Origin: Rhodothermales bacterium
GTDB lineage: Bacteria; Bacteroidota; Rhodothermia; Rhodothermales; UBA10348
Reading direction: 5' to 3'
Assembly (NCBI GenBank): GCA_028284865.1
Contig: JANQQV010000020.1
Location: 186,001-250,000 of the forward strand
Length of the DNA stretch: 64,000 bases
The notes under the pieces were generated by a model. It was not told the origin of the DNA. It ran no database searches and saw nothing but the letters and a program-made list of their open reading frames with translations. Below are positions 1,453 through 22,938 of the stretch, one piece after another. Each line of letters starts with the position of its first letter. Positions within the stretch are counted from its first letter, which is position 1. The position numbers and the translations under genes were made by a program.

Positions 1453-1523
1453 TTCCGCGGGTGGAATGATCACCCCGTGCTCTCCAGGTCAATACTTGTT
1501 TGTTTACTTGACTTCTTGATTCC

Positions 1524-2576: not shown

Positions 2577-2593
2577 ACACTGAATCTGCAGAC

Positions 2594-4027: not shown

Positions 4028-4040
4028 TTCCCGAGCAACA

Positions 4041-5081: not shown

Positions 5082-5090
5082 GTTGGGCTC

Positions 5091-6734: not shown

Positions 6735-8170
6735 AGCTGAAGAATCGCATACTCGCCCTGTTCGAGGATTCCGAATTCCGGGCGCCCGTATTGAAGCTCT
6801 TGTCGGGCACTGGCCTGGCATTCGTGATTGCGTACCTGGCTCAGATCGTCCTGCTCAGGCTCTTTCCGGACGAATACTGGGGAATCGCTGACTATGTGAC
6901 TGCCTGGGTGTCCGTGCTCGCTCCCGTCGCTTCATTGCGCTACGAGGACGCACTGATGCTTCCTGAGGACCGTCGAAAAAGCGCTCATGCCTACCTCCTG
7001 GCTGTGTCGTCGGTCATCTTGTTTTCCACGGCGCTGCTCCTCGTGCTGAGCTTCTCGGATACGGCCATGGGCTTTTTCGAGGACAAGGGTGGGCAATGGA
7101 TGCTGATTCTTCCCATGGCATTGCTTGCCAATCGTTTGGCCAAGATCAGTGAACTTTGGCTTAGCCGACAGGAATCGTTCGGTCGCATTTCAGCCGCTCA
7201 GGTTGTCCAGGCGGGTTCGATGGTCGGGGTCCGCATCGGCTCAGGCCTTCTGAAACCATCACCCGGCGGGTTGATCTGGGGATTCGTGGCGGGATTCGGC
7301 ATGTCGTTTCTCAGCATGAGCGGAAGGGTCTGGACGACTTTGAAGGCTTCCCTGGCAGGAAGACCGAGCCTGTCAGACATGATGGCAGTCGCGCGCCGTT
7401 ATCGGCGATTCCCCCAGTTCACGATGCCGGCAGCGATGATAAGCGGACTGATCACCCGATTGCCCATTCTGTTCATCCCGGAAATCTTCGGAATGGCGGT
7501 TCTGGGACAGTATTCGCGCGGGTTCAGCATCCTGTTTGTCCCGCTAAGCCTGTTGGCTGCCTCGATTGCACAGGTCTTTTTCGTGCGTGCCGTTGAAGCC
7601 AATCGCAGCGGTGGGCTCGCCACCTTCACCGGCAACGTCCACGCTCGATTGGTGCTGATGGCCTTCTGGCCCTCTGCCGTATTGATGGTGGCAGGCGGTG
7701 ACATATTTGCCACCTTGTTCGGAGAAGAATGGCGTGAAGGGGCCTCTTACGTTGCCTATGTGGCGCCTTGGATCCTTCTGACAACGGTCGCCTCCCCACT
7801 GACGCGCCTATTCGACGTCCTTGAACGGCAGCGAATGGAATTGCTGATCACCGTACTGAGCCTGATCGTGATTGCGATCGCATTGTTCTTCGGTGGGCGA
7901 AGCAACGACATCCATACCCTCCTGCTTTACCTCGGTATTGGTGGAGCGATCGTCCGTTTTGGTCAGATTCTTTGGCTTCTCAGCATGGCGGGGTGCTCAT
8001 GGTCGGCGATGTTCAGCCCCTATGTTCGCTATCTGCTAATCGGAGCACCGTTCCTGGCAGCCGTCTGGTTCACATCCACCTTGGGGTCGCCGATCGTCAC
8101 GACGCTCGCAGGAACGGTCTTCGGCGTGGCTTTCCTCGGATTGAATGCATTGCGCGAGAAACTGATATGA
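6731..8170 (+). CDS. Polysaccharide flippase-like protein (Wzx/MOP superfamily)
   Basis: An integral membrane protein of about 479 residues with roughly 12-14 hydrophobic helices and the layout of the MOP flippase family: a first helix pair (LSGTGLAFVIAYLAQIVLLR, then RLFPDEYWGIADYVTAW) and a central repeat with conserved Arg/Gly loops. It probably moves a lipid-linked glycan across the inner membrane. The TTG at 6731 overlaps the upstream TGA as TTGA and gives a short basic N-terminus (LKLKNRIL); longer GTG starts inside the previous gene are less likely. The stop TGA overlaps the next ATG (ATGA), so translational coupling is likely on both sides. No glycosyltransferase genes of a full O-antigen locus are present, so the glycan is unknown. 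Confidence 0.75.
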   Translation: MKLKNRILALFEDSEFRAPVLKLLSGTGLAFVIAYLAQIVLLRLFPDEYWGIADYVTAWVSVLAPVASLRYEDALMLPEDRRKSAHAYLLAVSSVILFSTALLLVLSFSDTAMGFFEDKGGQWMLILPMALLANRLAKISELWLSRQESFGRISAAQVVQAGSMVGVRIGSGLLKPSPGGLIWGFVAGFGMSFLSMSGRVWTTLKASLAGRPSLSDMMAVARRYRRFPQFTMPAAMISGLITRLPILFIPEIFGMAVLGQYSRGFSILFVPLSLLAASIAQVFFVRAVEANRSGGLATFTGNVHARLVLMAFWPSAVLMVAGGDIFATLFGEEWREGASYVAYVAPWILLTTVASPLTRLFDVLERQRMELLITVLSLIVIAIALFFGGRSNDIHTLLLYLGIGGAIVRFGQILWLLSMAGCSWSAMFSPYVRYLLIGAPFLAAVWFTSTLGSPIVTTLAGTVFGVAFLGLNALREKLI

Positions 8171-9069
8171 CGTTGATGACCTGCAGGCCTGATGCTCTGT
8201 CGAACTATCGCTCCTGGAACACACGAATGAGTGTTTGTGCGGTCCTTGCTGCATTGATGGTGGTCCCGCTCATCGGGTGTGGCTCTACGCCTCACGATGA
8301 CCAGCAAGAAGCAATTCGGGTGATGACATTCAACATTCGTTGGGCCAGCCCGGGCGATGGTGACAACATCTGGTCCAATAGGTCTGAATGGGTCGCGTCG
8401 ATCATCGATAGCAGCGAGGCCCACGTGATTGGCCTGCAAGAAGCTTTGCGACATCAGCTCGACGATGTGATGCGTGATCAGGCGCGTTTGGACTGGGTGG
8501 GTGTCGGACGGGATGATGGTGCCGACCAAGGCGAGTTTTCCCCGATTCTATTCGATTCGACGCGTTTGGAGCTGATTAGCTGGGACACGAAGTGGCTCTC
8601 ATCTGCTCCTGATTCGATTGGCAGCGTGGGATGGGACGCTGCACTTCCTCGGATTGCGACGCGCATCACGCTTCTCGACCGGGTTACACTCGATACCCTG
8701 CAGGTGGTGAATACCCATTTCGACCATCGAGGGCAGCAAGCGCGCCTCGAGAGCAGCCGATTGATTGGCTCCTGGATCAGCGACTATGATGTCGCGCTGG
8801 GCGATTTCAACGTCGAACCTGATTCCGAGCCCTATTCGGCGCTGGTTGAAGCAGGATGGATGGACGCAGGCATTGATTGGATTCCTGCAGATGGTGAGCC
8901 TGGCACCTTTCGGACGTTCGATGCGGCGTCAGAGACTTCCGTGCGTATCGACTACGTATTCCATGCGCCCGGGTGGACGACTGTGCACTACGATGTGCTC
9001 TCCCCAGTCCGTGACGACGCCTATCCGTCGGACCATCTCCCCGTGATCGCCGATCTCATTCGCGAATAG
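8167..9069 (+). CDS. Exported endonuclease/exonuclease/phosphatase-fold lipoprotein
   Basis: A 300-residue member of the EEP (DNase I-like) superfamily, probably a phosphodiesterase or phosphatase outside the cytoplasm. A lipobox-like LIGC places the lipidated Cys at residue 38 if translation starts at ATG 8167. That start overlaps the flippase stop (ATGA) and supplies the positive residues of the n-region; the internal ATG at 8227 lacks them. Family motifs in order: MTFNIRW, GLQEALRHQ (catalytic Glu), VNTHFDHRG, LGDFNVEP (Asp/Asn pair) and the C-terminal SDHLPVIADL (Asp-His). This set resembles exported EEP proteins acting on sugar phosphates or lipids rather than DNA. It ends the coupled operon, and a strong stem-loop terminator follows 75 bases later. 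Confidence 0.85.
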   Translation: MTLMTCRPDALSNYRSWNTRMSVCAVLAALMVVPLIGCGSTPHDDQQEAIRVMTFNIRWASPGDGDNIWSNRSEWVASIIDSSEAHVIGLQEALRHQLDDVMRDQARLDWVGVGRDDGADQGEFSPILFDSTRLELISWDTKWLSSAPDSIGSVGWDAALPRIATRITLLDRVTLDTLQVVNTHFDHRGQQARLESSRLIGSWISDYDVALGDFNVEPDSEPYSALVEAGWMDAGIDWIPADGEPGTFRTFDAASETSVRIDYVFHAPGWTTVHYDVLSPVRDDAYPSDHLPVIADLIRE

Positions 9070-9143
9070 ACCCCAGATCTGATTCCCGACTAGTCTCCGG
9101 ATCTGGCTTCCTCCTTGATTCCCGCAGCTGAGCGGTAAACAAA

Positions 9144-9176
9144 AAGCGGGCGGTGGCCATCGGCCACCGCCCGCTT
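9144..9176. terminator. Strong inverted repeat, likely bidirectional terminator
   Basis: A perfect 15-bp stem (9144-9158 with 9162-9176) has a 3-base loop ATC. The left arm is AAGCGGGCGGTGGCC and it is preceded by a run of A, so on the minus strand the stem is followed by T residues. It lies between the lipoprotein gene on the plus strand and the tRNA-Gly gene read towards it on the minus strand, so it can stop both transcripts. Confidence 0.85.
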
Positions 9177-9200
9177 GATATCATCCTTTCGGGATTTCTG

Positions 9201-9272
9201 AGCGGGTGATGAGATTCGAACTCACGACCCTCACGTTGGCAACGTGATGCTCTACCACTGAGCTACACCCGC
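9201..9272 (-). tRNA. tRNA-Gly (GCC)
   Basis: The minus strand folds as a cloverleaf. The acceptor stem is GCGGGTG (9266-9272) with CACCCGC (9202-9208). The D-arm is GCTC-AGTGGTA-GAGC. The anticodon stem is TCACG/CGTGA around the loop TTGCCAA with anticodon GCC. The T-arm contains GTTCGAATC. The discriminator base is U and CCA is not encoded. It is a single tRNA gene, read towards the shared terminator at 9144-9176. Confidence 0.95.
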
Positions 9273-9285
9273 TTTTCAGAGCGTG

Positions 9286-9317
9286 CAATAATACAGCACC
9301 GAAGCGTCTCGGATCAA
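9286..9317 (-). promoter_or_regulatory. Candidate Bacteroidota-type promoter for tRNA-Gly
   Basis: On the minus strand the -33 element TTG (9315-9317) is followed by a 21-base spacer and TATTATTG (9286-9293), one mismatch from the TAnnTTTG -7 consensus of Bacteroidota. Transcription would begin about seven bases before the tRNA 5' end, which is the expected place. Read by eye only. Confidence 0.5.
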
Positions 9318-9494
9318 CCCCGGCATGCAGCTTTACATGAAGCTCACATTCTCTGGATTATCCGATCTCGAACGCCCGGCAGTTGTCCACATTGTTCGCC
9401 CTCGTGCCTTCTTGAAGCCTATTTTCAGACCTCCGGATTGCGGCTCCAAGCCTCACTCCGCTCACGATCTCATCCTCTATCTTCTCCCGCATTC
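9318..9494. other. Leader/intergenic stretch before folD, nothing recognised
   Basis: About 180 bases between the tRNA promoter and folD. It presumably holds the folD promoter, but no clear TAnnTTTG element, riboswitch or small gene could be supported. An in-frame ATG at 9438 would extend FolD by 19 residues unlike the family and was not accepted. Confidence 0.4.
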
Positions 9495-10364
9495 ATGGCT
9501 CAGCTGATCGACGGAAAAGCCATCTCGGCCCAAGTTCGCAATGAAGTCAAACAGGCTGTGGCCGAAAGAATCGCCGCAGGTCATCGGCCGCCTTACCTGG
9601 CAGTCGTTCTCGTTGGAGACGACCCAGCTTCGGCGTCCTATGTACGAGGAAAAGCTAAAGCCTCTGCGGAAGTGGGCATCCAGAGCGACACGTTGACATA
9701 CGATGCATCCATCTCCGAGCAGGAACTCCTCGACATCGTTCAACGACTCAATGATGATGAAGGCGTCGATGGCATCCTCGTCCAGCTTCCCCTTCCGGAT
9801 CACATTGACGACCGGAAGGTGATTCATGCCATCGATCCAGCGAAGGATGTCGATTGTTTCCACCCAGAGAGCGTCGGAAACCTCGTCATCGGTCTGGATG
9901 GATTCCAACCCGCCACTCCCGCGGGAATCGTGGAAATGCTACAACGAACCGAGATCCAGACCAGTGGAGCCCAGTGTGTGATCATCGGGCGGTCCAACAT
10001 CGTAGGAAAACCGCTGGCCAACCTGATGCTCAAGAAGGGCCTGGACTCCACGGTCACCGTTTGTCACAGCCGCACGAAAGACCTGCCAGCCATCGCTCGT
10101 CAGGCAGATATCCTTGTCGCAGCCATCGGCCGCGCGAATTTTGTAACCGCTGATATGGTCAAGCCAGGGGCTGTCGTGATCGACGTGGGCATCAATCGGG
10201 TCGATGATGACTCGCGAGAGCGTGGTTACCGACTGGTTGGAGACGTGGACTTCGAAGCCGTTGAGCCCATTGCCAGCGCCATTACGCCGGTGCCTGGAGG
10301 TGTGGGTCCGATGACCATCGCCGTCCTGCTGCAGAACACATTGAGAGCGGCCACAGGCGCTTGA
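9495..10364 (+). CDS. folD: Bifunctional methylenetetrahydrofolate dehydrogenase/cyclohydrolase FolD
   Basis: FolD interconverts 5,10-methylene- and 10-formyl-tetrahydrofolate in the cytoplasm using NADP. From ATG 9495 the protein has 289 residues, the family length. Visible motifs are SYVRGKAKA with Tyr49 and the catalytic Lys53, VDGILVQLPLP, DVDCFHP, the nucleotide-binding GRSNIVGKP and the C-terminal signature PVPGGVGPMT. The gene stands alone on the plus strand, bounded upstream by the tRNA and downstream by an intrinsic terminator about 50 bases after its stop. Confidence 0.97.
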   Translation: MAQLIDGKAISAQVRNEVKQAVAERIAAGHRPPYLAVVLVGDDPASASYVRGKAKASAEVGIQSDTLTYDASISEQELLDIVQRLNDDEGVDGILVQLPLPDHIDDRKVIHAIDPAKDVDCFHPESVGNLVIGLDGFQPATPAGIVEMLQRTEIQTSGAQCVIIGRSNIVGKPLANLMLKKGLDSTVTVCHSRTKDLPAIARQADILVAAIGRANFVTADMVKPGAVVIDVGINRVDDDSRERGYRLVGDVDFEAVEPIASAITPVPGGVGPMTIAVLLQNTLRAATGA

Positions 10365-10411
10365 ACACGCCATCTCATGAGGAGCTCTCTGCTCTCTCAT
10401 GTTCCCAACAC

Positions 10412-10449
10412 AAGGCATGTAACCTTATGGGTTGCATGCCTTTTGTTTT
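10412..10449 (+). terminator. Intrinsic terminator of folD
   Basis: The stem is AAGGCATGTAACC (10412-10424) with GGTTGCATGCCTT (10430-10442), one G-U pair and a loop of five bases, followed by a T-rich tract (TTTTGTTTTG). It is placed about 50 bases downstream of the folD stop. Confidence 0.85.
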
Positions 10450-10693
10450 GGTCATCGCATCACAAATATAGGTCGCATATTTCCGCTTCCAGGACTTGAG
10501 GACTGGCCAAAGGTGACGATTCCTCACGTGTAGGCGCGCGTTCATTCAATACGATGATCGTGATCGTGCTGCCTACGAGGACAAACCAACCGACTCGTTC
10601 ATCGACATGGCCATTCGCCTTTTCCCTTTCAAGATCACCATGCCTGGAGCTTCGACTCCTGACCGGGACCCGCGCCTCGCCAACCGCCGGCCA

Positions 10694-13684
10694 ATGCGCT
10701 CCCTGTTGCTGGTGTTCGCTCTCTTCCTGCTCCCCGACCTAGCCTCGGCTCAGGCGGTGGGAGATTATCGGACCCGCGCTTCAGGAGACTTCTCCGACCC
10801 CAATATCTGGGAAACGTATTTCTGGGGAACCTGGTGGCCCAACGTAGGCCCTCCGGATATCAACGATGGCGTCATCACCATCACGTCGGGCACCACGGTC
10901 AATCTCGATGTCTCCGGCTCGTATGACCAGATGGTCATCGAAAACGGCGCTACGCTCAACGTCACCCAAACAGTTTCTTTCGTCGATGGCGCAGGTACCG
11001 ACTTGGATGTTTATGGGACGCTGAATATCGACCGTACTTCCTCTGTCCAGGGAACCGCCAGTGCCATCTTCCGAAACGGCTCCTCGGTGAATATGCTTGC
11101 TGGAGACCGGCTGTTCTTTCGGAACGACTCCCAAGGGACGTTCGAGGCCGGTTCCAACGTTGATATCGCCTCCAACGGGCGTATTGTGATCCGCGACGAC
11201 TCTGTCGTGGATATGGCAGCTGATGTTCAAATCAATTCCGGAGGGCGCATAGTCGTGCGTGATCGCGCTGCCACGACTGTATCCGGCGGAACGATCAACA
11301 ACGAAGGTCTCATCCGGGTCATCAACCAGTCGAGCATGGCCTTCGGAAGCGGCGCAACCTACATCCACGATCGCAATGGTGACCGCCTCCCGACGGCGTC
11401 CAGGACGACGTGGGATGCCGGTTCCAACGTGATCATCAGTGGACTCACAAATAACTTGCCTGCAAATCTCAATGATACCTTTGGCAATTTCACCTGGGAT
11501 AACCCTTCCCAGAGCGGTGATCTCGACCTCAATGGCAGGATAAACGCCATCGAGGGCGATTTCACGATCAATGACACCGGAAGCGGCGCCTTGATCTGGG
11601 ATGGTTCTGGTGGAGGGTCTTCCCTGGACGTAGCCGGTGATTTCACGCTGAACGGTGGAGAGTTCATCATCGGTGACGGAAACACCTCTTCCATCGCGGT
11701 AGATGGAAATGCCTCAATTGGTTCTGGGTCCACGTTGACGCTTGGCGAAGGCGGTGGAGATGGCACATTGACGGTTGACGGAAATCTGGATCTCGCAGGA
11801 GACGTCAACACCACAGGTGGCGGATCGGGAACGATCGATATGAATGGTTCAACTCCCCAGAATATCAGCCAGACAGGTTCGACGACCGGAGACGTGAATC
11901 TGTCCCTGTCGGGAAGCGGAGGCGTAACTGCCTCAACCGACCTTTCCTTTTCAGGATCGATCACCGAGACTGCAGGTGGACTCGACATGGGTGGAAACGC
12001 CCTGACACTCGGTGGCGACTTGAACATCAGCACAAGCCTGACCAATGTAGATTCCATCGAATTCACGGGCACAAACAGCAGTGTCCTGACCCTGCCAGCC
12101 GGATCCCAGTCCGTCAATGGACTGACAGTTGACAAGCCCGGCAGCGACTTGACGCTTGGCTCGGACCTGACCATCACCGGATATGTCATCGTCCGTGACG
12201 GGACGTTCAATGATGGCGGATTTACCCTCACCCTGGCAGAGGGAGCCACTTTTTACAGTGATCAGCCCTGGACGGGGACCGTAACCGTTTCGCGTACCTA
12301 CAGTCAGAACAGTGATGGATGGCGCATGATCGCGTCGCCTGTCGATGGCGTGAACTACAGTGACTTGAACGGCGCTTTCCTGACTCAGGGAGGCGCGTGG
12401 GCCGATAGCCCTGACGGGACATCGAATCTCCAGGCATTCAACTTCCTGACACAGGATTGGTCACCCCTCTCGGGTGCCGATGCCACCATGGGGGCAGGTA
12501 CGGGATACATTCTCTATGCTTTCGCAGAAGATGATCTTGGTGCTTCCATCCTGCCCACGACCTGGACGGTGACCGGCCAGCCGGGTGCGCTCAGTTCTCA
12601 GGCCCTCTCTTACAGCGGCGACCCTGCCAGCTCTTACAATCTGGTAGGAAACCCCTCCACGGTCAACCTGGACTGGGATTTGACGGTGTTGGCCTCTTCC
12701 AATATTGGCTCCTCATACGCCACGTGGGATCCTTCAGGAACGACCGGCGGTGGCACTTCAGGCTACCAGTATTATGATGAAGCCAGCGGAACGGGAAGTG
12801 CCGGTCGATATATCGCACCTTTCACCGCTTTCATGGTCCAGGCTACCGGCGCGGGCTCATCGCTTGCACCCACAACATCGGAGGCTGCGGCAACGCAGAC
12901 ACCCGTGCAGTATGGAAAACGATCGGGTCCAGCTCCTCATTTTGTCCTTTCTGTGACCGGAGAGGCACTTTCCGAGCCTGAAACCATCCTCTCCTTCGGT
13001 GCAGAAGCCACTGACGAGTCGGGCCTGTTCGATGTCCACCGGTTGGCCCCGCTCTCGACACAATTCGTGACGTTATGGTCCGCAGATGATGAACGCAGGC
13101 TTGCGTTCGACGGCCGTACCATGCAGGAAGGTCGAGAAATCTATGATCTCGTGCTGGCGACCACACGCCCTGGCCAGTATACCTTGAGAACCGGATCGAT
13201 TGTGGACATCCCTGAGCACTGGAATGCTCGTCTGATCGATCTCAGAACCGGCAACGAAATGGATCTTCTGGCTGGCGACAGCTTGCGTTTCCATACGGTG
13301 GACCAGGATGTAGTCACCGCTGACAGGAGACTCTCCGAGTCACGTAGTCCGCGCTTCAGAGTCATCATCGAGGATCCGGATCGCTTTGTTGGCGACGACA
13401 CCGACTGGACCGTTGCTGGGAATGCCCCGGTGCTGTCCCAGAACTATCCAAATCCCTTCAATCCGATCACAACGATTCGATTCTCCTTGCCCGAAAGTGC
13501 ACCTGTGAGACTCGAAGTATTCGACATGCTGGGTCGTCGCGTCTCCACGCTGATCGACGGCACACTCTCCAGCGGCTGGCACGAGTCACGCTTTGACGCG
13601 AATACGCTTTCCAGTGGCATGTACCTTTATCGTCTTTCTGTTGCAGGCCAGCAGGTTACCCGCTCCATGCTCCTGCTTCGATAG
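10694..13684 (+). CDS. Large secreted repeat protein with type IX secretion (type A) C-terminal sorting domain
   Basis: About 996 residues from ATG 10694, chosen because it begins directly with a good signal peptide (MRSLLLVFALFLLPDLASAQ); in-frame ATGs at 10607 and 10640 would add an unlikely leader. After the signal peptide, residues about 30-500 are Gly/Asn/Thr/Ser-rich with alternating short strands (for example VIENGATLNVT, MAADVQINSGGRIVVRD), as in right-handed beta-helices of adhesins. A middle beta-sandwich region with WRMIASPVDGVNYSDL and YNLVGNPST follows; such segments are common in sorting-domain proteins of this lineage. The last 80 residues (from about 917) contain NYPNPFNPITTIRFSLPE and SGMYLYRLSVAGQQVTRSM, the type A sorting domain. 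The protein is therefore expected on the cell surface or outside. It lies directly upstream of the subunit operon. Confidence 0.85.
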   Translation: MRSLLLVFALFLLPDLASAQAVGDYRTRASGDFSDPNIWETYFWGTWWPNVGPPDINDGVITITSGTTVNLDVSGSYDQMVIENGATLNVTQTVSFVDGAGTDLDVYGTLNIDRTSSVQGTASAIFRNGSSVNMLAGDRLFFRNDSQGTFEAGSNVDIASNGRIVIRDDSVVDMAADVQINSGGRIVVRDRAATTVSGGTINNEGLIRVINQSSMAFGSGATYIHDRNGDRLPTASRTTWDAGSNVIISGLTNNLPANLNDTFGNFTWDNPSQSGDLDLNGRINAIEGDFTINDTGSGALIWDGSGGGSSLDVAGDFTLNGGEFIIGDGNTSSIAVDGNASIGSGSTLTLGEGGGDGTLTVDGNLDLAGDVNTTGGGSGTIDMNGSTPQNISQTGSTTGDVNLSLSGSGGVTASTDLSFSGSITETAGGLDMGGNALTLGGDLNISTSLTNVDSIEFTGTNSSVLTLPAGSQSVNGLTVDKPGSDLTLGSDLTITGYVIVRDGTFNDGGFTLTLAEGATFYSDQPWTGTVTVSRTYSQNSDGWRMIASPVDGVNYSDLNGAFLTQGGAWADSPDGTSNLQAFNFLTQDWSPLSGADATMGAGTGYILYAFAEDDLGASILPTTWTVTGQPGALSSQALSYSGDPASSYNLVGNPSTVNLDWDLTVLASSNIGSSYATWDPSGTTGGGTSGYQYYDEASGTGSAGRYIAPFTAFMVQATGAGSSLAPTTSEAAATQTPVQYGKRSGPAPHFVLSVTGEALSEPETILSFGAEATDESGLFDVHRLAPLSTQFVTLWSADDERRLAFDGRTMQEGREIYDLVLATTRPGQYTLRTGSIVDIPEHWNARLIDLRTGNEMDLLAGDSLRFHTVDQDVVTADRRLSESRSPRFRVIIEDPDRFVGDDTDWTVAGNAPVLSQNYPNPFNPITTIRFSLPESAPVRLEVFDMLGRRVSTLIDGTLSSGWHESRFDANTLSSGMYLYRLSVAGQQVTRSMLLLR

Positions 13685-13806: not shown

Positions 13807-13837
13807 ATTCGAGTTCAACCGAAGACTCTTATAAATG

Positions 13838-13842
13838 GAGGT
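13838..13842 (+). promoter_or_regulatory. Strong ribosome binding site that fixes the start of subunit 1
   Basis: GGAGG lies seven bases before ATG 13850. Such a strong site is unusual in this window, where most genes show none, and it argues for ATG 13850 rather than ATG 13835, which would place the site inside the gene. It also suggests high expression of the first subunit. Confidence 0.75.
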
Positions 13843-13849
13843 TATTCAC

Positions 13850-14335
13850 ATGCAGAAACTGAAAGCTTTTGCTGTTGCCCTGGTCCTGTTCGCAGGATTC
13901 TCGAACGCAGCTATGGCACAGTTGGCTTCGGACAACCACACGGTTACCGTCGAAGTCGCTGCAATCAACGAGATTGCAATCACTGGAAACGCTACTCTGA
14001 CCGTCAACTCGGCCACTGCTGGTTCCGATCCAGTTGCAGCCACGGACAACTCCACGTCCTACGCTGTAACGACGAACGAAGCATCGGTCAAGATTACGGC
14101 TGAAGCCGACCAGAACATGCCTGCCGGCGTGACCCTGTCCGTCAACGCTTCCGCTCCTGCTGGTGCCGCTTCTGCTGGTGCCACGACGCTCAGCACAGGT
14201 GCTGCAGACGTTGTTACCGGAATGGGAACGGTTTCCCAGGGAAGCTTGACGCTGGCGTACTCGCTTGCTGCAACTGCTGCAGCTGGCCAGATGTCGTCAA
14301 CGGCAGTCACGGTTACCTACACGATCACCAACTAA
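13850..14335 (+). CDS. Small exported subunit-like protein 1 (putative major surface/fibre subunit)
   Basis: 161 residues: a signal peptide (MQKLKAFAVALVLFAGFSNAAMAQ), then an all-beta domain rich in Ala, Thr, Val and Ser, with almost no aromatic residues and no Cys. The mature N-terminus has an alternating strand (HTVTVEVAAINEIAI) like the donor strand of chaperone-usher subunits, and the chain ends in a strand, VTVTYTITN. It shares the motif ATxGSxPxxAxDNS and a following TTN with the next two genes, so the three are likely paralogues. It has the strongest ribosome site of the operon and a stem-loop over its stop codon, both of which fit a more abundant subunit. No named family is recognised with confidence; candidates are spore-coat-U-like or WxL-like surface proteins. 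Confidence 0.7.
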   Translation: MQKLKAFAVALVLFAGFSNAAMAQLASDNHTVTVEVAAINEIAITGNATLTVNSATAGSDPVAATDNSTSYAVTTNEASVKITAEADQNMPAGVTLSVNASAPAGAASAGATTLSTGAADVVTGMGTVSQGSLTLAYSLAATAAAGQMSSTAVTVTYTITN

Positions 14336-14359
14336 TCAGTCCCCCCACTGACTAGTTGG
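14328..14359 (+). promoter_or_regulatory. Intra-operon stem-loop spanning the stop codon of subunit 1
   Basis: A 13-bp stem with one mismatch (14328-14340 with 14347-14359) and a CCCCCC loop covers the TAA stop at 14333-14335. There is no T-tract after it, so it is not a standard terminator. Such structures between the first and second genes of fimbrial operons often protect the upstream mRNA part and lower downstream expression; that role here is inference. Confidence 0.6.
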
Positions 14360-14391
14360 CTCGTAGTAGAGCGTACCCAATCAGGCGATCC

Positions 14392-14949
14392 ATGTACACG
14401 ATTCTGACCTCATATGGCTGGAAATGTGCATGGATCGCCTTGTTTTTGGGCTTGGCGTCCAACAGCACATCATTCAGCGCCTCAGCGCAGACTCCTCCTC
14501 CCTTGCCCAACGCCATCCAAATGGCTGGCTCTTCATTGACGCTGACCCAGTCCGTTACCGTCTCCGTCCAGGAGATCAACGAAATCACCATTTCATCAGA
14601 CGTTTCGCTGACGATCGACACGGCCACACCAGGAACCGGCCCCGACGCAGCCAATGATGCTTCGGCATCCTTCAATTTGACGACGAACGGCACGAACAAA
14701 AAGATCGTGGGTGCGCTCGACAGCAATTTCTCGAGCGGCATCTCACTGAAAGCCCTTCTTGTGGCGCCGACTGGCGGCTCAAGTTCAGAACAGACCTTGA
14801 GCAATGTGGCCGTCGATCTCGTGAATGGGATCACGCGGACCACGGCAACCAACCTTTCCATCACCTATACCGCCGAAGCAACCATCAATGCCGCTCCCAA
14901 CGGCTCTGGTGAGTCCCGGACGGTGACGCTTACGCTGATGGACAACTAG
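14392..14949 (+). CDS. Small exported subunit-like protein 2
   Basis: 185 residues from ATG 14392, with a longer n-region and a signal peptide ending near ASNSTSFSASAQ. The mature part repeats the plan of the first subunit: SVTVSVQEINEITISSDVSL matches HTVTVEVAAINEIAI of subunit 1, then DTATPGTGPDAANDASASF with a TTN after it, then a strand-rich domain ending VTLTLMDN. The stop lies two bases before the next start. A TTG at 14356 is an alternative start but would overlap the stem-loop and lengthen the n-region. It is probably a minor or tip subunit of the same surface structure. Confidence 0.65.
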   Translation: MYTILTSYGWKCAWIALFLGLASNSTSFSASAQTPPPLPNAIQMAGSSLTLTQSVTVSVQEINEITISSDVSLTIDTATPGTGPDAANDASASFNLTTNGTNKKIVGALDSNFSSGISLKALLVAPTGGSSSEQTLSNVAVDLVNGITRTTATNLSITYTAEATINAAPNGSGESRTVTLTLMDN

Positions 14950-14951
14950 CG

Positions 14952-15461
14952 ATGAATCGCCAGCTGCAAACCATATTCCCCCGCTTTCTGGCTGTTGCCT
15001 GCATCCTGCTCGTTGTAGCGATGCCTTTGCGAAGCCAGGCCCAGGAGCTCCGATTCAATTCAGGCGGTGGCCCTCTAACGTTGACTGTCCAATCAGCTAC
15101 GGCCGGCTCCGAGCCTGTCGATGCCCTGGACAACAGCTCCGAAATCTTTTGGGATGCCAACTTTGGCGTACCAGCAAAAATGACGGTCTCCACGATCGCA
15201 CCCGGACAGAATTTCGACCTCTACCTGCTTCTCAGTGTACCCAGTCAAGGTGCTGGCGGACAGGGGGTTGTGCAGCCCGAGGTCCAGTTGATTGATGGAA
15301 TGCTCGATACAGACCTGTTGACTGGTATTCCGTCCACCCTGCCAGGCCGGCAAGGTTTTGGCACTCTCGAATACCGTGCATCCGCTACTGTGTCCGATGG
15401 CAACAGTACGGAGCTCGGAGATGACTCTCACATCGTCACATTCACGCTTTTAGCTCAATGA
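14952..15461 (+). CDS. Small exported subunit-like protein 3 (divergent)
   Basis: 169 residues with a signal peptide (MNRQLQTIFPRFLAVACILLV onward, ending in RSQAQ). The shared motif is present as QSATAGSEPVDALDNSS, but the preceding INEI strand of the other two subunits is missing: the mature chain starts directly with ELRFNSGGGPLTLTVQSAT. The C-terminus is again a strand, HIVTFTLLAQ. It starts two bases after gene 2 and its TGA overlaps the chaperone start as ATGA, so translation is likely coupled. Loss of the N-terminal strand would suit a tip or adaptor position, but that is inference. Confidence 0.65.
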   Translation: MNRQLQTIFPRFLAVACILLVVAMPLRSQAQELRFNSGGGPLTLTVQSATAGSEPVDALDNSSEIFWDANFGVPAKMTVSTIAPGQNFDLYLLLSVPSQGAGGQGVVQPEVQLIDGMLDTDLLTGIPSTLPGRQGFGTLEYRASATVSDGNSTELGDDSHIVTFTLLAQ

Positions 15462-16279
15462 AACGCTTCTTCCCCCTCTTTGCCCTTCTCCTGCTTGGAG
15501 GCACGTTTTCCCCTGCCGCGGCACAAATTTCCGTTCGCTCTCAGTTGAGTCACGACAAAACGGTCGTTCCAGGAGAGACCTACACAGGTGCCATCCTGGT
15601 TCGAAACGATACAGACGAAGTTCAGCAGGCCAAGGTCTATCAGACCGACTACCTGTTTTATGCTGACGGCACGAATTACTTCGGCGATCCGGGGCAATTG
15701 GATCGCTCAAACGCATCGTGGATCGAAGTAGCTGCATCCTCCGTGGTCATCCCTCCTCGCAATTCGATGGAAATCACGTATCGCGTGACAGTACCCGAGG
15801 ATATCGATGGAAGCGCTCCTGCGGGCTCGTACTGGAGCATCATCATGGTGGAGGGTATTCCGAAGGATTCCCCGGAGAACATCGAGAACAGTCTCCCTGA
15901 CAACAGCTACGGCGTACTTCAGGTGACCCGGTACGGCGTTCAGGTGGCTTCACACTTCAACGGAACGTCTGGTGCCGAACTCACGATCACGGAGTCGCAG
16001 CTTTCCCGATCTGACGACGCGGAAACGACGCTGAATCTGGCCGTGCAGAATGACGGCCACAAACTTGTTCGTCCGGATATGTGGGTTGAGCTGTATGGAA
16101 TGGACGGTACCGCATTCGGGCGCATGGAAGGCCAGAAAAGCCGCCTCTACCCTGGTACCAGTGTTACCCAGCGCATCAAGTTGGGCAAACTCGATCCCGG
16201 CTCCTACCGCGCTCTCGTCATTATGGACGCAGGCGAAGAGGACGTGTTCGGAGCTGAATTCACCCTGAACATCGACTGA
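15458..16279 (+). CDS. Exported Ig-like protein, putative periplasmic chaperone (PapD-like or DUF916-like)
   Basis: 273 residues with a signal peptide ending in PAAAQ. Two beta-sandwich domains follow. The first has VVPGETYTGAILVRNDTDEV, then SNASWIEVAASSVVIPPRNS and EITYRVTVPED. This order (added tone of N-x-D loop, a trailing proline-bounded strand, then a basic strand) is what is seen in both fimbrial chaperones and the DUF916 domain of Gram-positive WxL operons. The second domain ends GAEFTLNID. There is no membrane helix after the signal peptide, so it should be periplasmic. ATG 15458 overlaps the TGA of subunit 3. The place after three subunits and before an usher-like protein is the usual order of a chaperone-usher operon. 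Confidence 0.6.
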   Translation: MKRFFPLFALLLLGGTFSPAAAQISVRSQLSHDKTVVPGETYTGAILVRNDTDEVQQAKVYQTDYLFYADGTNYFGDPGQLDRSNASWIEVAASSVVIPPRNSMEITYRVTVPEDIDGSAPAGSYWSIIMVEGIPKDSPENIENSLPDNSYGVLQVTRYGVQVASHFNGTSGAELTITESQLSRSDDAETTLNLAVQNDGHKLVRPDMWVELYGMDGTAFGRMEGQKSRLYPGTSVTQRIKLGKLDPGSYRALVIMDAGEEDVFGAEFTLNID

Positions 16280-16308: not shown

Positions 16309-19300
16309 GTGAGCCGGTACTCAAACCATATCTCCCTGTTCGCCTGGTTAGCCAGCTGGTTCGTCGTTGTCATTCTGACATCGACGAATCCGGTATTTGG
16401 GTTCTTCCCGGATCACGCAGTCGACTATTCCGGCAATAGCGTCGAGACGAGCACGGATTCACTGGTTGTGGACTTTGCAGACATCACGATCGACATCGTC
16501 GGTGGAGACTCTCTGTCAGTTGATCCAGGAGCTGTGGTCACGGTTGTCTATCGCATTGCCAGCCAACACGATAGACCACTCACGCTCACGCCACACTTTG
16601 ACATTCCTGATGGTTGGAGCATTGTTTTCGGCTCCCAGGATATCGAGCTCGAATCGTCGTCGACCGTTACCCGCTTCGTCACTTACAAAGTGCCTGAAAT
16701 CGAGCTGGCAGGTCGGTACGAACCCACATTCAACCTTTCCGATGACAGCGACGTCATTCTGGCAAGCATCTCCTCAATCGTTCAGGTCCACTCCATTCAT
16801 GACCTGTCCCTCGAAGCCGGGTCGACGCCTGCACATCTGGCCGCTGGAAAATCATTCGAAGTCCCACTGACGGTCGCCAACGACGGAAATGCCCGCATCG
16901 AAGTCAGCCTCAATGCCGACGATCGCGAGTACACCCGGGTCGAACTCCCCAAAAAGCGGGTTTCCCTCGATCCGGGTTCATTCGAGATGATCACGGCACG
17001 CGTTACGACGGATACCGATGCGAATCGCTCTCAGCGTATTGTCGTTCGCTTCGAAGCCGAATTGGTAGATGACGAAGAGATTTCGACATCGACCTCGGTC
17101 GCGTTCGACATCATTCCAATCTATTCCAGAATGCGCCCGAAGGCGGCCAATACCCCGCTTTCGCTCTCCATCGAGACAGTGGGAGACGAAAGTGGTGCCA
17201 ATCCGCAGGCAACCATTCATGCCAGCGGCAAACTGTTTGGCGGAGACGTTCAGGTGGCCGCTACGTTGGCAGAAACGCCTCGCAAGAAGCTTTATGGCCA
17301 GGAGCCGCAGGTTACCGTTCAGTACGAACGTGAAAACGTACTCGTCACCGTGGGAGACCACTCATTCCAGACGTCGCCAATGACCCTGACGGGCGAACGG
17401 GGTGTCGGTGTTGCCACTGAATATCATCGTGATTCGTGGTCCATCAAGGGTACCCTCCAGCGTTCCAGAACAATCATTCCTGTGCAGGAACGAGCTGCTC
17501 TTTCTGCTTCCTGGCGTCGATCTGAAACCTCGGAAATTAGTGCCAACCTGTTGCACCGCAATGAATTTTACTCCGGCACCTTGTTTACATTGCGAGGTGT
17601 CACGCAGCCATTCGGTCCGACGTCAAAACTCGACGTAGAGTGCGGAATCTCCAACGGACGCACGCTGCAGGATCCTTCTTGCATGATCCAGACGCTGGGT
17701 AGTACCTCCCGCCTTTCGTACCGACTCAATGTCCAGAAAGCCTCGACCCAGTTCCCTGGAACGCTGGCAGGGACACGCATGGTTGCTGCATTTACTTCAT
17801 TCAAGCTGGCCCAGGGATGGCGTCTTGAGCAGATGTCCACGCTCATCAACAGGAATCTGGGTAGTGGAGCCAACCGCAACAACCTGTATGCAAAGGTTGG
17901 ATTGAATTATTCAACCCGACTGTCTGGTGGCAGCCTGTATTCAACCATCCACGGAATCCGCTCTACAGCCAAGTACGACCTTGTTGAGGGGACAACGCAG
18001 CGCACCGAGAATACACTTCGCGTCACCACTGGTTACCACATGCGTACCATGGGGTTGACGGCTACTTTAGAGCAGGGTCGCGCTTCGAACGATGCCTCTC
18101 TGACACCAGGCGGTCTATCCCGGTATCGGCTGAACGCCCGCTATAGTCCGACAGGATTCCTTCATCTGAACGGCTCCATGGAACGTTCTCAGGGCAACCT
18201 GTCCTCCATGGCTGTCGATCAGACGAACCGCCAGATGGGACTCGGCGCAACGGTCACCTTCAAGAAGGACATTCAAGCATCCATTGCGGCATTCAGGAGC
18301 TCTGTAAAAACCCACTACGAACAGCAGTACAGCTCGATTCGAAGCGGGCTTTCGAAATCATTCCGTTCAGGACGTGTGTTGAGTATCACGGCCCAGTTCA
18401 ATCGCAACGAAGGTCGACAGTCACTTCGCACCGCGGACTATCGAATTGCGTTTGCCACTCCCCTGGAGCTGCCATTTGCAGCCCGTCGGGCTGGAAGTGA
18501 CATCATTCGGGGAGAAGTCATCAATCAGGAAACGGGTCAACCCATCCCTGATGTGCTCCTTTTCCTGGGCAATGATTTGGCCATCACGGACTCCAAGGGT
18601 CGATTCCGATTCGTGCGACCTGGAAATGATATCGTCTTCATGCGTGTCGATGCCTCGTCGATCGGCTTCGATCGAACGCCAGCCGTGCCCATGCCCATGG
18701 AGATCGGGCCTGAACGGTTCAATGGAGAGACGCTGATCATTCCGATCACCCGTGCTGCAACGATTTCCGGAGTCATTCAGCTGTTCCAGAACTCCACAAC
18801 CGGTGCCAACCTAATCGGTGCGTCCGATTCGGATCTTCAGATGACCGGCGGCCTCCACGGAGCCGTTGTTCAACTGGAAAGTGATGATCAACGTCTGCGC
18901 ACGCGGACCGGGCGTGACGGTTCATTTGAATTCAATCAGCTTCCTTCAGGAGAGTACACCATCTCTGTCGTCCGGTCAGAACTCGCTGATGACCAACGAC
19001 TTGAGACCAGTACCATTAAAGTATTGGTTGAAGCTGGAGAGGCTACGCAACTGAAGTTCAGGGTCGTTCCAGTCAAGAAGCAGATCCGCATGATCAAGTC
19101 GGGCAACATCTCTCTTGGTTCTGATGGGACATCCACTATTGAAGTAAACACATTGACGCCGACATCCGAATCAGATGCGGGCTCGTCGGACGTGGCAGTC
19201 CCGGCAACAGACACTGACAAATCATCGGCAGCGATCTCGGACCGCGCACAGGTGAGCTCTGATTCCACCACGTCTGCCACGCTATCCCGTGCAGGGCGCC

Positions 19301-20331
19301 AAACCCCTTCGACGTGGATCTCGGCTCTCAAGCAAACGAATGAGGGAGGTCTGAAAACGGCGCCTCGCAAGCCTGGAGTCGGCTTTATGCCGTACTACGT
19401 TGAGCAAGGCATGACGAGGGAATCGTCGTCCCGTCCTGTTTACCCTCTCCTTTTCGTCCTGTGTATCCTATTCCTCCTGGTCGACCTGGATCTGATTGTA
19501 CGCTCCATCCTCAGTCGTCGTGCTGGCGTGATGCGTCAGATGCGTGAACCAGTTTGGATGGATACGGTCCGTATGGGTGTCCTTTATTCATTCACCATTT
19601 TGGTGACAACGACTTGGATGGGTGCTCTTGCTGGATTGGCCGTTTCGTTAGCCCTTTCCGGTCTCAGCGTTGCCATTGAATCGAAAGACACCTACCGTTC
19701 GATCCTGAATATCATGTTGCTCCAATTCGTGGGGAGACGCGGTTCTGGAGACTGGATCGCTTTCCGCAATGTTGCCGCGCAACTCCTGGACGTTTCCCTT
19801 GAAACAGCGACACTCCGACATTTGAACGGCATGGAGGAACAGGTGCCAACCCACCGTCTCCACGCCCTGGCCGACATCACGGGACACCACACAGAATTGA
19901 CGGCTGTACATGTTGAGCTGGCCTTCTCCAGACTGTCCAACTTGCGCCAGGTGCGCGAAGTGACGACCGATCGTCTTGCCGAATTGAGACCTGGACACGT
20001 TTCCGAGCACCTGCATATTCATTTTGAAGATGCTGATGCGCAGTGGACCCGCTTGCACCTGACAGTGGCGGTCAGCGCAACGGACAAAAACCGGATCGTG
20101 GTTCGTGAGCTGATTGAAGCTGAATTGCTCTCAGTGGGCATCAGCATGAGGGATGCCCATCCGGTCACCGGTACGACGCCGTCGCTGCGAGTGATCGGTC
20201 GTCAGGAGACGTCCCAATCCGCGACAGTCACATCAAAGACGCGCATTGACTCCACCTCCAAAGGGAAACGACCTGGTTTAAGGCTTATCAAAGGCGGTGA
20301 TGACACTGGAGAAACAGGAAAAGCAGCCTGA
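16309..20331 (+). CDS. 1340-residue usher-like barrel protein fused to an MscS-like membrane module
   Basis: GTG 16309 starts a signal peptide (residues 1-32). Residues 50-270 are two Ig/NEW3-like sandwiches (DPGAVVTVVYRIASQ; SFEVPLTVANDGNARIEVS). Residues about 285-720 are a long series of short alternating amphipathic strands with Tyr/Arg ends (VGLNYSTRLSGGSLYSTIHG; GLGATVTFKKDIQASIAAF), like an outer-membrane barrel. Residues 733-800 and 848-922 resemble carboxypeptidase-regulatory or SpaA-like domains (GEVINQETGQPIPDVLLFLG; TRTGRDGSFEFNQLPSGEYT). A low-complexity linker (945-1000) precedes hydrophobic helices at about 1043-1065, 1086-1104 and 1106-1122. Then LLQFVGRRGSGDWIAF (1137-1152) and LDVSLETATLRHLNGMEEQV read like the beta domain of MscS channels, followed by an MscS-like alpha/beta tail. 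It is one uninterrupted frame. Barrel plus inner-membrane module in one chain would span the envelope, which is highly unusual. Domain calls are by eye. Confidence 0.65.
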   Translation: MSRYSNHISLFAWLASWFVVVILTSTNPVFGFFPDHAVDYSGNSVETSTDSLVVDFADITIDIVGGDSLSVDPGAVVTVVYRIASQHDRPLTLTPHFDIPDGWSIVFGSQDIELESSSTVTRFVTYKVPEIELAGRYEPTFNLSDDSDVILASISSIVQVHSIHDLSLEAGSTPAHLAAGKSFEVPLTVANDGNARIEVSLNADDREYTRVELPKKRVSLDPGSFEMITARVTTDTDANRSQRIVVRFEAELVDDEEISTSTSVAFDIIPIYSRMRPKAANTPLSLSIETVGDESGANPQATIHASGKLFGGDVQVAATLAETPRKKLYGQEPQVTVQYERENVLVTVGDHSFQTSPMTLTGERGVGVATEYHRDSWSIKGTLQRSRTIIPVQERAALSASWRRSETSEISANLLHRNEFYSGTLFTLRGVTQPFGPTSKLDVECGISNGRTLQDPSCMIQTLGSTSRLSYRLNVQKASTQFPGTLAGTRMVAAFTSFKLAQGWRLEQMSTLINRNLGSGANRNNLYAKVGLNYSTRLSGGSLYSTIHGIRSTAKYDLVEGTTQRTENTLRVTTGYHMRTMGLTATLEQGRASNDASLTPGGLSRYRLNARYSPTGFLHLNGSMERSQGNLSSMAVDQTNRQMGLGATVTFKKDIQASIAAFRSSVKTHYEQQYSSIRSGLSKSFRSGRVLSITAQFNRNEGRQSLRTADYRIAFATPLELPFAARRAGSDIIRGEVINQETGQPIPDVLLFLGNDLAITDSKGRFRFVRPGNDIVFMRVDASSIGFDRTPAVPMPMEIGPERFNGETLIIPITRAATISGVIQLFQNSTTGANLIGASDSDLQMTGGLHGAVVQLESDDQRLRTRTGRDGSFEFNQLPSGEYTISVVRSELADDQRLETSTIKVLVEAGEATQLKFRVVPVKKQIRMIKSGNISLGSDGTSTIEVNTLTPTSESDAGSSDVAVPATDTDKSSAAISDRAQVSSDSTTSATLSRAGRQTPSTWISALKQTNEGGLKTAPRKPGVGFMPYYVEQGMTRESSSRPVYPLLFVLCILFLLVDLDLIVRSILSRRAGVMRQMREPVWMDTVRMGVLYSFTILVTTTWMGALAGLAVSLALSGLSVAIESKDTYRSILNIMLLQFVGRRGSGDWIAFRNVAAQLLDVSLETATLRHLNGMEEQVPTHRLHALADITGHHTELTAVHVELAFSRLSNLRQVREVTTDRLAELRPGHVSEHLHIHFEDADAQWTRLHLTVAVSATDKNRIVVRELIEAELLSVGISMRDAHPVTGTTPSLRVIGRQETSQSATVTSKTRIDSTSKGKRPGLRLIKGGDDTGETGKAA

Positions 20332-20550: not shown

Positions 20551-22938
20551 ATGACCATGCGTTTCCTTAAGGCTCTTCCACTCGGTTTTGTCCTGACCCT
20601 GTTATTCGCTCCGCAGTTCTCCCAAGGACAAGATCTGCCGGATGTAACCGCCGAGATTCAAGCGACATCCTCCATTATCGTGGCTGGTGAGAGAGCCAGG
20701 GAAGCTCGCAGCCCGGAAGACTACCGGCTAGAGCACCTTGACGGAACGCTCATTCCCATTGCAGACGTTCTACCGCGGCGGTCAGACGAGGTCCTGATCG
20801 TTCCCCAGCACCAGCTGGATTTCACGCGACTGCACCGCTTGCATATCGACGGTCGGGATGAGCCCATTCTCGTTCGCAGGAATGACTGGTTCAAGTCTCT
20901 GTACTCCAACAAGCCGTTGGGCGCCATCGTGTCCGACGATGAGTCGGTAACGACATTTCGCTTGTTTGCGCCACGCGCTGAGCGCGTTACGCTGCATCTT
21001 TACCTGGATCGATTCCAGGATTTGAACAATCCGGAGCGCTCCATCAACATGACCAAAGACCCCGATGGCGTGTGGGAAGCTGAACAATCAGGCAATCACC
21101 ATGGTGTCTTCTATACGTTCACGGTTGACGGACCAGACGAACCGGGGAATTACTTCTACGAGACTCATCCAGAACACATCACAGATCCGTATGCGTTCGT
21201 AAGCGACGACTCGTTCGGCAAGGCCATGGTGTATAATCCCGGACCTCCACCGGCACCGGTCAAAGGTGGGCGACCCGCCATGGAAGACGTGATAGCCTAC
21301 GAAGTCCACGTTCAGGACTTCACAGACCGATTGCCGCTCCCTGATCACCTGAGCGGCACGATGCTTGGCATGATCGAGCCGGGCTTGACGAATGAGCACG
21401 GCGCTCCTGTTGGATTCGATCACCTGCTCGATCTGGGAATCAACGTTGTCCACCTGATGCCGACTCAGGAATTTCTGCACTATCCAGATGACGAGTGGCA
21501 GGCAGCATTCGCCGACGATCCTTACATGCAGGAGCAAGGGGTCGCCATGGAAAACTATCAGTGGGGCTACCGGACAACCCATGCATTTGCGGTAGAATCG
21601 CGATTCCGTTCCAAGAATGCACCGATTGGTGCTGAGCGCGAGGAATTCAAGCAGCTGGTGGAAGCCTTCCACGAGAAGGGCATCAGTGTCATTATCGACG
21701 TGGTCCCGAACCACACGGGCGAAAACATGGATGGCCGGCACTACCTGTTCAACTTCAACGCCATCGATCTGGCGTATTACTATCGAACGGACGGCGAAGT
21801 CCAGCATATCGGGCCGTTTGGAAATGAAACCCGACCAGAGGATCGTCCCATGGTCCAGCGCTGGATGCTTGATCAGCTCCGTCACTGGGTGGACGTACTT
21901 GGCGTAGACGGATTCCGAATCGACCTGGCGGGACAGATTGACGAGCAGACCCTGATCTGGATCAAGGAAGAGCTTCCGGAAGATCTGATCATCTACGGCG
22001 AGGCCTGGATTGCCCCAACCGATCCGGTCACGCGTGCCGATCCCGACCTGTACTGGTACAAGGCCGATGCTCCGATCACCTTCTTCCAGGATGACTCGCG
22101 GAATGCGTTCAAAGGGCCTGTTTCCAATCCATCTGACCCGGCAGTGGATCGCGGGTACGCCGGCGGAGACGGCACGCAGCGTGAACGCGCCATGATGGGA
22201 TTGATGAACTCCTTCCCCGAGGAAGTTGACCCGAATCGTGGTATCAACTACCTCGATATCCACGACAACTGGGCACTCGCCGACCGTTTCTCTGATGAAG
22301 ACTGGGACGGACGCAAGCACGTTGATGAAGCAGGCGTCCGGATTGCCGCTACGCTCCTGTTCACGTCACTGGGGCCGGTTGTCATTCACGGAGGCACCGA
22401 GATGTTGCGCTCCAAAGGCGCTGCACCCTTGATGGAAATCGTGAAAACCTCCGCCTCTGGAGACCTGGCCTATCACGGAAAGCGTGACACCTACAATCAT
22501 CGTCGCGCCAATCAGTACGAATGGGAATTCGCGGGAGCAGGACCGGGTGAACGCCCGATCGATTATGCTGCCATGAATGCCTATTGGCAGGAGCTGGTTG
22601 CGCTACGCAATAGCGATACGGGCTCGGTATTCAGAATCGGCGGTGAAGTCCCAGAGGGTCATTACCAGTGGTTCACCCCGGATGACTATCAGCTGCTTGG
22701 GTATGTCACCGGTGGTGATGTACTGGTTCTGATGAACACGTCCTGGGAAGCCGCCAGCTTCGATATCACGGAGCTGCCTGCAGGGACCTGGCGTCAGCTC
22801 TCGGATGGAACGACCTTCGAAGACGATGGCTGCACGTGTGATCAAACCATTGAATCACACGGAGAAGACAACAACGGCACCATCCAGGTCACTGTTCCGT
22901 CCCGCTCCGCTCCGATCTGGGTGCGTGTGACCGAGTAG
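20551..22938 (+). CDS. Exported GH13 alpha-amylase family enzyme (pullulanase/amylase-like)
   Basis: 795 residues with a signal peptide (MTMRFLKALPLGFVLTLLF onward, ending SQG), so it acts outside the cytoplasm on alpha-glucans. Residues about 135-215 form an N-terminal CBM48-like sandwich (TTFRLFAPRAERVTLHLYL). The GH13 barrel shows the four conserved regions: DVVPNHTG (about 385), GVDGFRIDLA with nucleophile Asp458, IIYGEAW with acid/base Glu484 and LDIHDN with Asp572. YQWGYRTTH resembles the YNWGY motif of type I pullulanases, so debranching or mixed specificity is possible. A small C-terminal beta domain follows, and no type IX sorting domain is present. It is on the same strand as the subunit operon, 219 bases on. 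Confidence 0.88.
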   Translation: MTMRFLKALPLGFVLTLLFAPQFSQGQDLPDVTAEIQATSSIIVAGERAREARSPEDYRLEHLDGTLIPIADVLPRRSDEVLIVPQHQLDFTRLHRLHIDGRDEPILVRRNDWFKSLYSNKPLGAIVSDDESVTTFRLFAPRAERVTLHLYLDRFQDLNNPERSINMTKDPDGVWEAEQSGNHHGVFYTFTVDGPDEPGNYFYETHPEHITDPYAFVSDDSFGKAMVYNPGPPPAPVKGGRPAMEDVIAYEVHVQDFTDRLPLPDHLSGTMLGMIEPGLTNEHGAPVGFDHLLDLGINVVHLMPTQEFLHYPDDEWQAAFADDPYMQEQGVAMENYQWGYRTTHAFAVESRFRSKNAPIGAEREEFKQLVEAFHEKGISVIIDVVPNHTGENMDGRHYLFNFNAIDLAYYYRTDGEVQHIGPFGNETRPEDRPMVQRWMLDQLRHWVDVLGVDGFRIDLAGQIDEQTLIWIKEELPEDLIIYGEAWIAPTDPVTRADPDLYWYKADAPITFFQDDSRNAFKGPVSNPSDPAVDRGYAGGDGTQRERAMMGLMNSFPEEVDPNRGINYLDIHDNWALADRFSDEDWDGRKHVDEAGVRIAATLLFTSLGPVVIHGGTEMLRSKGAAPLMEIVKTSASGDLAYHGKRDTYNHRRANQYEWEFAGAGPGERPIDYAAMNAYWQELVALRNSDTGSVFRIGGEVPEGHYQWFTPDDYQLLGYVTGGDVLVLMNTSWEAASFDITELPAGTWRQLSDGTTFEDDGCTCDQTIESHGEDNNGTIQVTVPSRSAPIWVRVTE

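Follow-up and report, generated by a model that had tools for sequence, protein, structure and literature searches.

What would one polypeptide do with a predicted outer-membrane beta-barrel in its middle and a channel-like inner-membrane module at its end? The question is raised by a gene in a 64,000-nucleotide stretch of a Rhodothermales (Bacteroidota) genome (assembly GCA_028284865.1, contig JANQQV010000020.1, positions 186,001 to 250,000 of the forward strand), which we call the window. A sequence-only reading of the window had described one open reading frame as a barrel-like region followed by a module resembling the channel protein MscS. We find that this fusion gene is conserved and that its C-terminal module is an MscS homolog. 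We favor, with a probability of about 0.6, the explanation that its product is an export barrel in the outer membrane, belonging to an uncharacterized chaperone/usher-like system, in which the MscS-derived module would act as an inner-membrane tether.

Layout and Conservation of the Fusion Gene

The reading frame starts with GTG and runs uninterrupted (Table 1). A signal peptide region is followed by two immunoglobulin (Ig)-like domains, the predicted barrel, two transthyretin-like domains, a long linker of low complexity that is poorly conserved in the ortholog alignment, and the MscS-like module. Single-sequence Pfam searches of the window protein recovered Ig-like-type and CarboxypepD_reg matches and no other curated domain, with no match to the MscS family PF00924, and NCBIfam returned nothing useful. 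The Ig-like-type matches of the window protein (FixG_C- and CARDB-like) lie below the cut-off, while PF10633 is above it in orthologs L007 and L008. Hydropathy indicates hydrophobic helices at residues 1043–1120, where an AlphaFold2 model resolves three.

Five full-length orthologs (L003, L004, L005, L007, and L008), from genomes of the same family and with 27–37% identity to the window protein, have the same architecture, which makes six intact fusion genes in three genera. No ATG ahead of the first transmembrane (TM) helix is conserved in their alignment, which leaves the idea that a separate MscS protein starts internally without support, and the earlier observation that neither a frameshift nor a start site parts the two halves holds.

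Homology of the C-Terminal Module to MscS

Against the PDB, phmmer matched residues 1051–1220 of the window protein to MscS-type channels only, with expectation values (E) of about 0.6 or higher; the sole other match of the protein was one dioxygenase, at the transthyretin-like region. As the window protein alone is this weak against MscS, stronger tests with orthologs and profiles were needed. Ortholog L003 exceeds the PF00924 gathering score in Pfam. At E < 1e-4, a profile of the fusions matched only MscS and YnaI in the PDB (best E 9.7e-9), in alignments spanning the TM helices and the beta and alpha/beta domains. In hhalign, eight fusion C-termini aligned with 26 standalone MscS proteins over 200 columns (probability 98.6, E 1.3e-15), and reversed and shuffled controls reached at most 1% probability. 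The most divergent fusions, L007 and L008, when compared by themselves, scored a weak 29% against MscS and 99.7% against the other fusions. Used as a query, the C-terminal region retrieved standalone proteins across the class, two of which were scanned and carry PF00924 and PF21082, and the fusion-profile search found further standalone proteins across the phylum.

The AlphaFold2 model of the module has the MscS layout of three TM helices followed by cytoplasmic beta and alpha/beta domains. Its confidence is low in the membrane part and good in the alpha/beta domain, which superposes on an MscS structure (Table 1). All 50 Foldseek matches listed for this model are MscS-type (best E 9.3e-11). 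Inclusion in the MscS superfamily rests on homology over the pore helix TM3 and the upper vestibule, that is, the beta domain (PMC4560390); homology of the fusion module covers both, with the window protein alone scoring weakly. The C-terminal module is genuinely homologous to MscS, though divergent, which bears out the earlier interpretation of residues 1043–1122 as hydrophobic helices with an MscS-like beta domain behind them.

Alternative Anchors in Related Proteins

We define an envelope-anchored family by an Ig-barrel-transthyretin core and an adjoining chaperone-like gene, both of which are found at the window gene. A second cluster in the same genome (contig C8) consists of a subunit gene, a chaperone-like gene, and the gene for a LysM-tailed barrel protein, L002; in the coordinates of that locus, the usher-like protein and its own chaperone-like and subunit genes are placed at 1237–5663, and the chaperone-like gene at 4364–5218. 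Five genomes (that of the window, G001, G003, G022, and G024) carry one MscS-tailed and one LysM-tailed version each. The L002 cluster and other Bacteroidota relatives share the core of the fusion and its chaperone-like and pilin-like neighbors, but have LysM, SPOR, or one TM helix in place of the MscS module, usually behind a shorter linker. No experimental description of this LysM/SPOR/TM-tailed family was found in open full texts.

LysM tails were identified by Pfam in L002, L018, L020, L118, L119, and L130, and by sequence in L012, L013, L021, L022, L120, and L131. SPOR tails score above the cut-off in L010, L072, and L074 and below it in L009 and L076. Two proteins (L014 and L117) end in a single TM helix with a basic tail, and others, L011 among them, have no anchor; in G018, which carries L011, a barrel gene without the MscS module occupies the chromosomal site of the fusions. 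The tail of L117 (from G187) resembles a protein kinase N-lobe, followed in the anchor slot by the TM helix and basic tail; the kinase reading was set aside, being without Pfam support.

A tree of the core with the tails left out groups the MscS-type proteins in one clade (91/91), with the SPOR-type beside it, and places the LysM-type members of the same family in a second clade (100/100); because of long branches in other parts of the tree, the deeper forks are unsure. Linker length, taken from the second transthyretin-like domain to the anchor, is 89–113 residues for MscS modules, 82 and 164 for TM anchors, and 26–75 in 17 of the 18 proteins with peptidoglycan anchors. These lengths would be expected of a tail that spans the distance between the outer membrane and either the wall or the inner membrane.

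Tether, Channel, or Cleaved Precursor

In the explanation that we favor, the chain would begin with the signal peptide, the two Ig-like periplasmic domains, and the outer-membrane barrel. It would return to the periplasm with the transthyretin-like domains, which may form a plug or remain periplasmic domains, span the periplasm with a disordered linker of about 110 residues, and end in the MscS-derived module with its three TM helices and cytoplasmic beta and alpha/beta domains. The module, probably as an oligomer, would tether the barrel to the inner membrane and take the role that LysM or SPOR (binding to peptidoglycan) or a single TM helix would have in the relatives. Computation establishes the gene and its conservation, the homology to MscS, the exchange of anchors, and the linker lengths, whereas the barrel's place in the outer membrane, an uncut chain through both membranes, the export of subunits, and the anchoring role are inferred.

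The alternative that survives best is that the module works as a channel and links the export barrel to osmotic state or to tension in the inner membrane, the force-gated or tension-sensing platform raised by the sequence-only reading. We consider this unlikely. Residues were counted in eight fusion sequences, including two C-termini from decayed loci (L026 in G011 and L016 in G026), and in 26 standalone MscS relatives, all mapped on E. coli MscS. A channel would agree with the retention of the whole MscS core under purifying selection (ratio of nonsynonymous to synonymous rates about 0.29 for G003/G001 and below 0.1 for G023/G026, with the synonymous rate near saturation) and with the gate positions L105 and L109, which are hydrophobic in 8/8 fusions (L/V/I and I, respectively); MscS would also be an unlikely choice for a mere anchor. 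Conversely, the A110 position beside the gate is Glu in all eight fusions and in none of the 26 standalone proteins, which have Ala or Gly there. Gly121, kept in 23/26 standalone proteins, is replaced by I, V, or M in every fusion, and the Pro-Asn (PN) motif of the beta domain is present in 25/26 standalone proteins and 0/8 fusions. The A106 position is Ser in all eight. According to published work, kinks at G113 and G121 are tied to inactivation and to the stable open state (PMC4560390). Neither the PN motif nor Gly121, common as both are among MscS proteins, belongs to the superfamily inclusion criterion given above. Furthermore, six standalone MscS-type genes lie elsewhere in the same genome, and the sister proteins have plain peptidoglycan anchors in the same slot.

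Because the PN motif and Gly121 are lost, a Glu stands beside the gate, relatives use plain anchors, and the genome has its other MscS-type genes, an anchoring or scaffolding role is favored over that of a valve. Judged from the residues, the module is unlikely to be an ordinary tension valve, some gating is possible, and a modified or silent pore with an anchoring or scaffolding role is more likely. Seven of the eight fusions end in Ala-Ala preceded by a conserved LRL-type strand; E. coli MscS ends in KEDKAA, and the Ala-Ala end was seen in none of the 26 standalone relatives. This end is possibly a degradation signal or a cage strand.

Another alternative is that the chain is a precursor from which cleavage yields two products, a barrel in the outer membrane and an MscS-like protein in the inner membrane, so that the fusion only couples expression. 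Cleavage would solve the sorting problem and could use the linker, which is long, of low complexity, and poorly conserved. It is nevertheless improbable, given that the covalent peptidoglycan anchors at the same position in relatives would be useful only in an uncut chain, that linker lengths are consistent with physical reach, and that no intact ortholog has a separate pair of barrel and MscS genes.

The Predicted Outer-Membrane Barrel

In the AlphaFold2 model of residues 255–950, whose mean confidence (pLDDT) is about 50, about 26 beta strands lie within residues 284–716. All 50 Foldseek matches listed for it are outer-membrane proteins (MtrB-type proteins, porins, LptD, Occ channels, and others), FimD being among them at 6e-4. 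VIA-align returned TonB-dependent receptors, porins, and FhaC (Z 13–16) over model residues 157–497, as well as one apolipoprotein row. Hydrophobicity alternation within residues 285–720 exceeds that of shuffled sequences, with z 6.6 for a six-sequence profile and z 4.9 for the window protein alone; the Ig-like region alternates too, so alternation indicates beta structure and is on its own no proof of a barrel. A Porin_4 (PF13609) match, under the cut-off, occurs in relative L076 (E 2.4e-5). The model and these matches suggest that residues 285–720 very likely form an outer-membrane barrel, in agreement with the earlier reading of this region, although the model is weak.

If these residues were instead a periplasmic beta-rich structure, the protein would lie in the inner membrane only. 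The low confidence of the barrel model and the lack of a curated barrel family match in the window protein would allow this, yet it is quite improbable in view of the outer-membrane proteins that fill the listed Foldseek matches, the porin-family match in L076, the adjoining chaperone-like and subunit genes, as in usher clusters, and the LysM and SPOR tails of relatives. Such tails suit a protein that is attached to the wall and lies in the outer membrane or the periplasm.

We use "usher-like" for layout and inferred role only, because the core is not PF00577 and has no profile similarity to the ushers FimD and EcpC: PF00577 had no match in the window protein or elsewhere in its genome (an E. 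coli control was positive), and a profile of the core showed no similarity to either E. coli protein. The usher identity considered earlier is retained as an analogy of cluster layout and given up as family membership.

Decayed Copies and Points Against the Proposed Tether

Three further loci are remnants left by deletions and are excluded from the number of intact fusions. G011 has lost its N-terminal part together with the genes for the subunits and the chaperone, and the frames are split near residue 753; in G026, the upstream secreted protein runs straight into the linker and MscS module through an in-frame deletion; and in G005, about the last 100 residues are left. The remnants lie at 3207–6026 of locus L103, 976–1290 of locus L105, and 5737–10792 of locus L100, and the 3′ end of the fusion gene is kept in all three.

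An assembly or sequencing artifact joining an outer-membrane gene to an MscS gene, whether by a missed stop or by a false join near 19200–19450, is ruled out by the six intact genes with conserved neighbors, because the five other genomes keep the same domain order and three of their loci recur with the same neighbors in separate named records (L056, JABMOI010000097.1; L057, JAQBZH010000006.1; L058, JAURGV010000025.1), found by a contig profile search with a four-row alignment.

Several points weigh against the tether explanation. The barrel model has low confidence (pLDDT 50, Foldseek TM-scores about 0.2), curated barrel families are unmatched by sequence save for the sub-threshold porin match in L076, and sequence comparison connects the system with none of the classical ushers, PapD-type chaperones, or known pilins. 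A complete separation of linker lengths by anchor type failed once more relatives were added, the LysM relative L118 having a linker of 116 residues, and the linker counts, taken from related sequences, lack phylogenetic independence. Several relatives have lost the locus or keep it in decayed form. Finally, the explanation requires that one chain be handled by both the Sec lateral gate and BAM, and cleavage between the linker and TM1 would break the bridge.

Gene Cluster and Neighboring Features

The fusion gene is the last of a cluster encoding a secreted protein, three subunits that the barrel would export, a chaperone-like protein, and the barrel itself. The cluster adjoins osmC, surE, panB, two ompH genes, and bamA, in an order conserved among orthologs. 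The pilin-like subunits had no family or structure match. The chaperone-like protein matched no PapD family, and its profile showed no similarity to FimC, EcpB, or EcpE. Its paralog at the L002 locus has a weak WxLIP_PGBD match (E 5.8e-4, under the cut-off), and on this sequence resemblance a link between the chaperone-like family (15458–16279 in the window, 4364–5218 at L002) and Gram-positive WxLIP surface systems is possible. A gene for an amylase/pullulanase-like secreted enzyme (20551–22938) lies between the fusion gene and osmC in the window and in G001, and not at the other syntenic loci examined.

Table 1. Coordinates in the window of the cluster genes and of the parts of the fusion protein.
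Feature	Coordinates	Strand	Basis
Conserved secreted protein with type IX sorting tail, first cluster gene	10607..13684	+	PF18962; synteny
Pilin-like secreted subunit 1	13835..14335	+	Secreted, beta-rich by sequence, syntenic; no family match
Pilin-like secreted subunit 2	14356..14949	+	Synteny
Pilin-like secreted subunit 3	14952..15461	+	Synteny; relative in LysM-type cluster of same genome
Chaperone-like protein, 273 residues, two putative Ig-like domains	15458..16279	+	Adjoins barrel gene in clusters examined
Usher-like barrel/MscS fusion gene	16309..20331	+	1340 residues; single reading frame; five other full-length orthologs
Signal peptide region, residues 1–35	16309..16413	+	Hydrophobic stretch about 9–31 (hydropathy)
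Two Ig-like/NEW3-like periplasmic domains, residues 50–262	16456..17094	+	PF10633 in L007, L008
Predicted outer-membrane beta-barrel, residues 285–720	17161..18468	+	Model strands, Foldseek, alternation, sub-cut-off PF13609 in L076
First CarboxypepD_reg/transthyretin-like domain, residues about 733–812	18505..18744	+	PF13620, two stretches
Second CarboxypepD_reg/transthyretin-like domain, residues about 845–933	18841..19107	+	PF13620, best stretch 849–918
Low-complexity linker, residues 934–1042	19108..19434	+	89–113 residues in six fusions
MscS-like TM1, residues about 1043–1070	19435..19518	+	Model helix and hydropathy
MscS-like TM2 and TM3, residues about 1082–1142	19552..19734	+	Model helices; Glu1124 beside gate position (mapping on E. 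coli MscS)
MscS-like beta domain, residues about 1149–1181	19753..19851	+	PN motif lost; PF00924 above cut-off in L003; Foldseek
MscS-like C-terminal alpha/beta domain, residues about 1197–1276	19897..20136	+	Most confident part of model; 2.1 Å over 84 residues to MscS structure 7onl_A
Conserved C-terminal strand-like motif with Ala-Ala end, residues 1322–1340	20272..20328	+	Ala-Ala end in 7/8 fusions, 0/26 standalone MscS

Relation to Known Systems and Significance

The module resembles the MscS superfamily (E. coli MscS and YnaI; PF00924, PF21082) in TM1–3, the beta and alpha/beta domains, the hydrophobic gate, and a predicted N-out topology. It differs in the thousand-residue secreted part with a barrel ahead of it, in the loss of the PN motif and Gly121, in the Glu at A110, and in the Ala-Ala end. 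Fimbrial chaperone/usher systems (FimD, EcpC; PF00577) likewise have periplasmic beta domains, a barrel similar in size to the predicted one, and a barrel gene placed after those for small secreted subunits and a chaperone-like protein. In contrast to fimbrial ushers, the fusion lacks PF00577 and any usher or chaperone profile similarity, shows no plug domain inside the barrel, and has an extra envelope anchor. The usher barrel is 24-stranded; the low-confidence model of the fusion has about 26 strands. The likeness to the Gram-positive WxL/WxLIP (DUF916) systems lies in the weak WxLIP_PGBD resemblance of the paralogous chaperone-like protein; the fusion system differs in its diderm setting and barrel partner, and no WxL proteins were seen.

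Outer-membrane pore proteins have been described as rarely fused to other domains, and the section concerned, in a paper covering 76 families, does not list an inner-membrane partner (PMC4827864). In open full texts we found no description of an MscS-usher or LysM-usher fusion, and a barrel joined to a polytopic inner-membrane module appears to be without a described example, in line with the earlier remark that a chain across the periplasm was not known from described usher or MscS proteins.

If the chain stays whole, it would link the two membranes directly and covalently, and an ion-channel fold would have been put to structural use. Such a chain would also pose the problem of how Sec and BAM handle the same substrate. 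We put the odds as even that a single chain lies in both membranes and that the state of the inner membrane, as tension or as ion flow through the modified pore, could be passed to the outer-membrane secretion gate. The family as a whole is a natural series of swapped anchors (LysM, SPOR, TM helix, and MscS), and their linkers lend themselves to tests as molecular rulers of the envelope.

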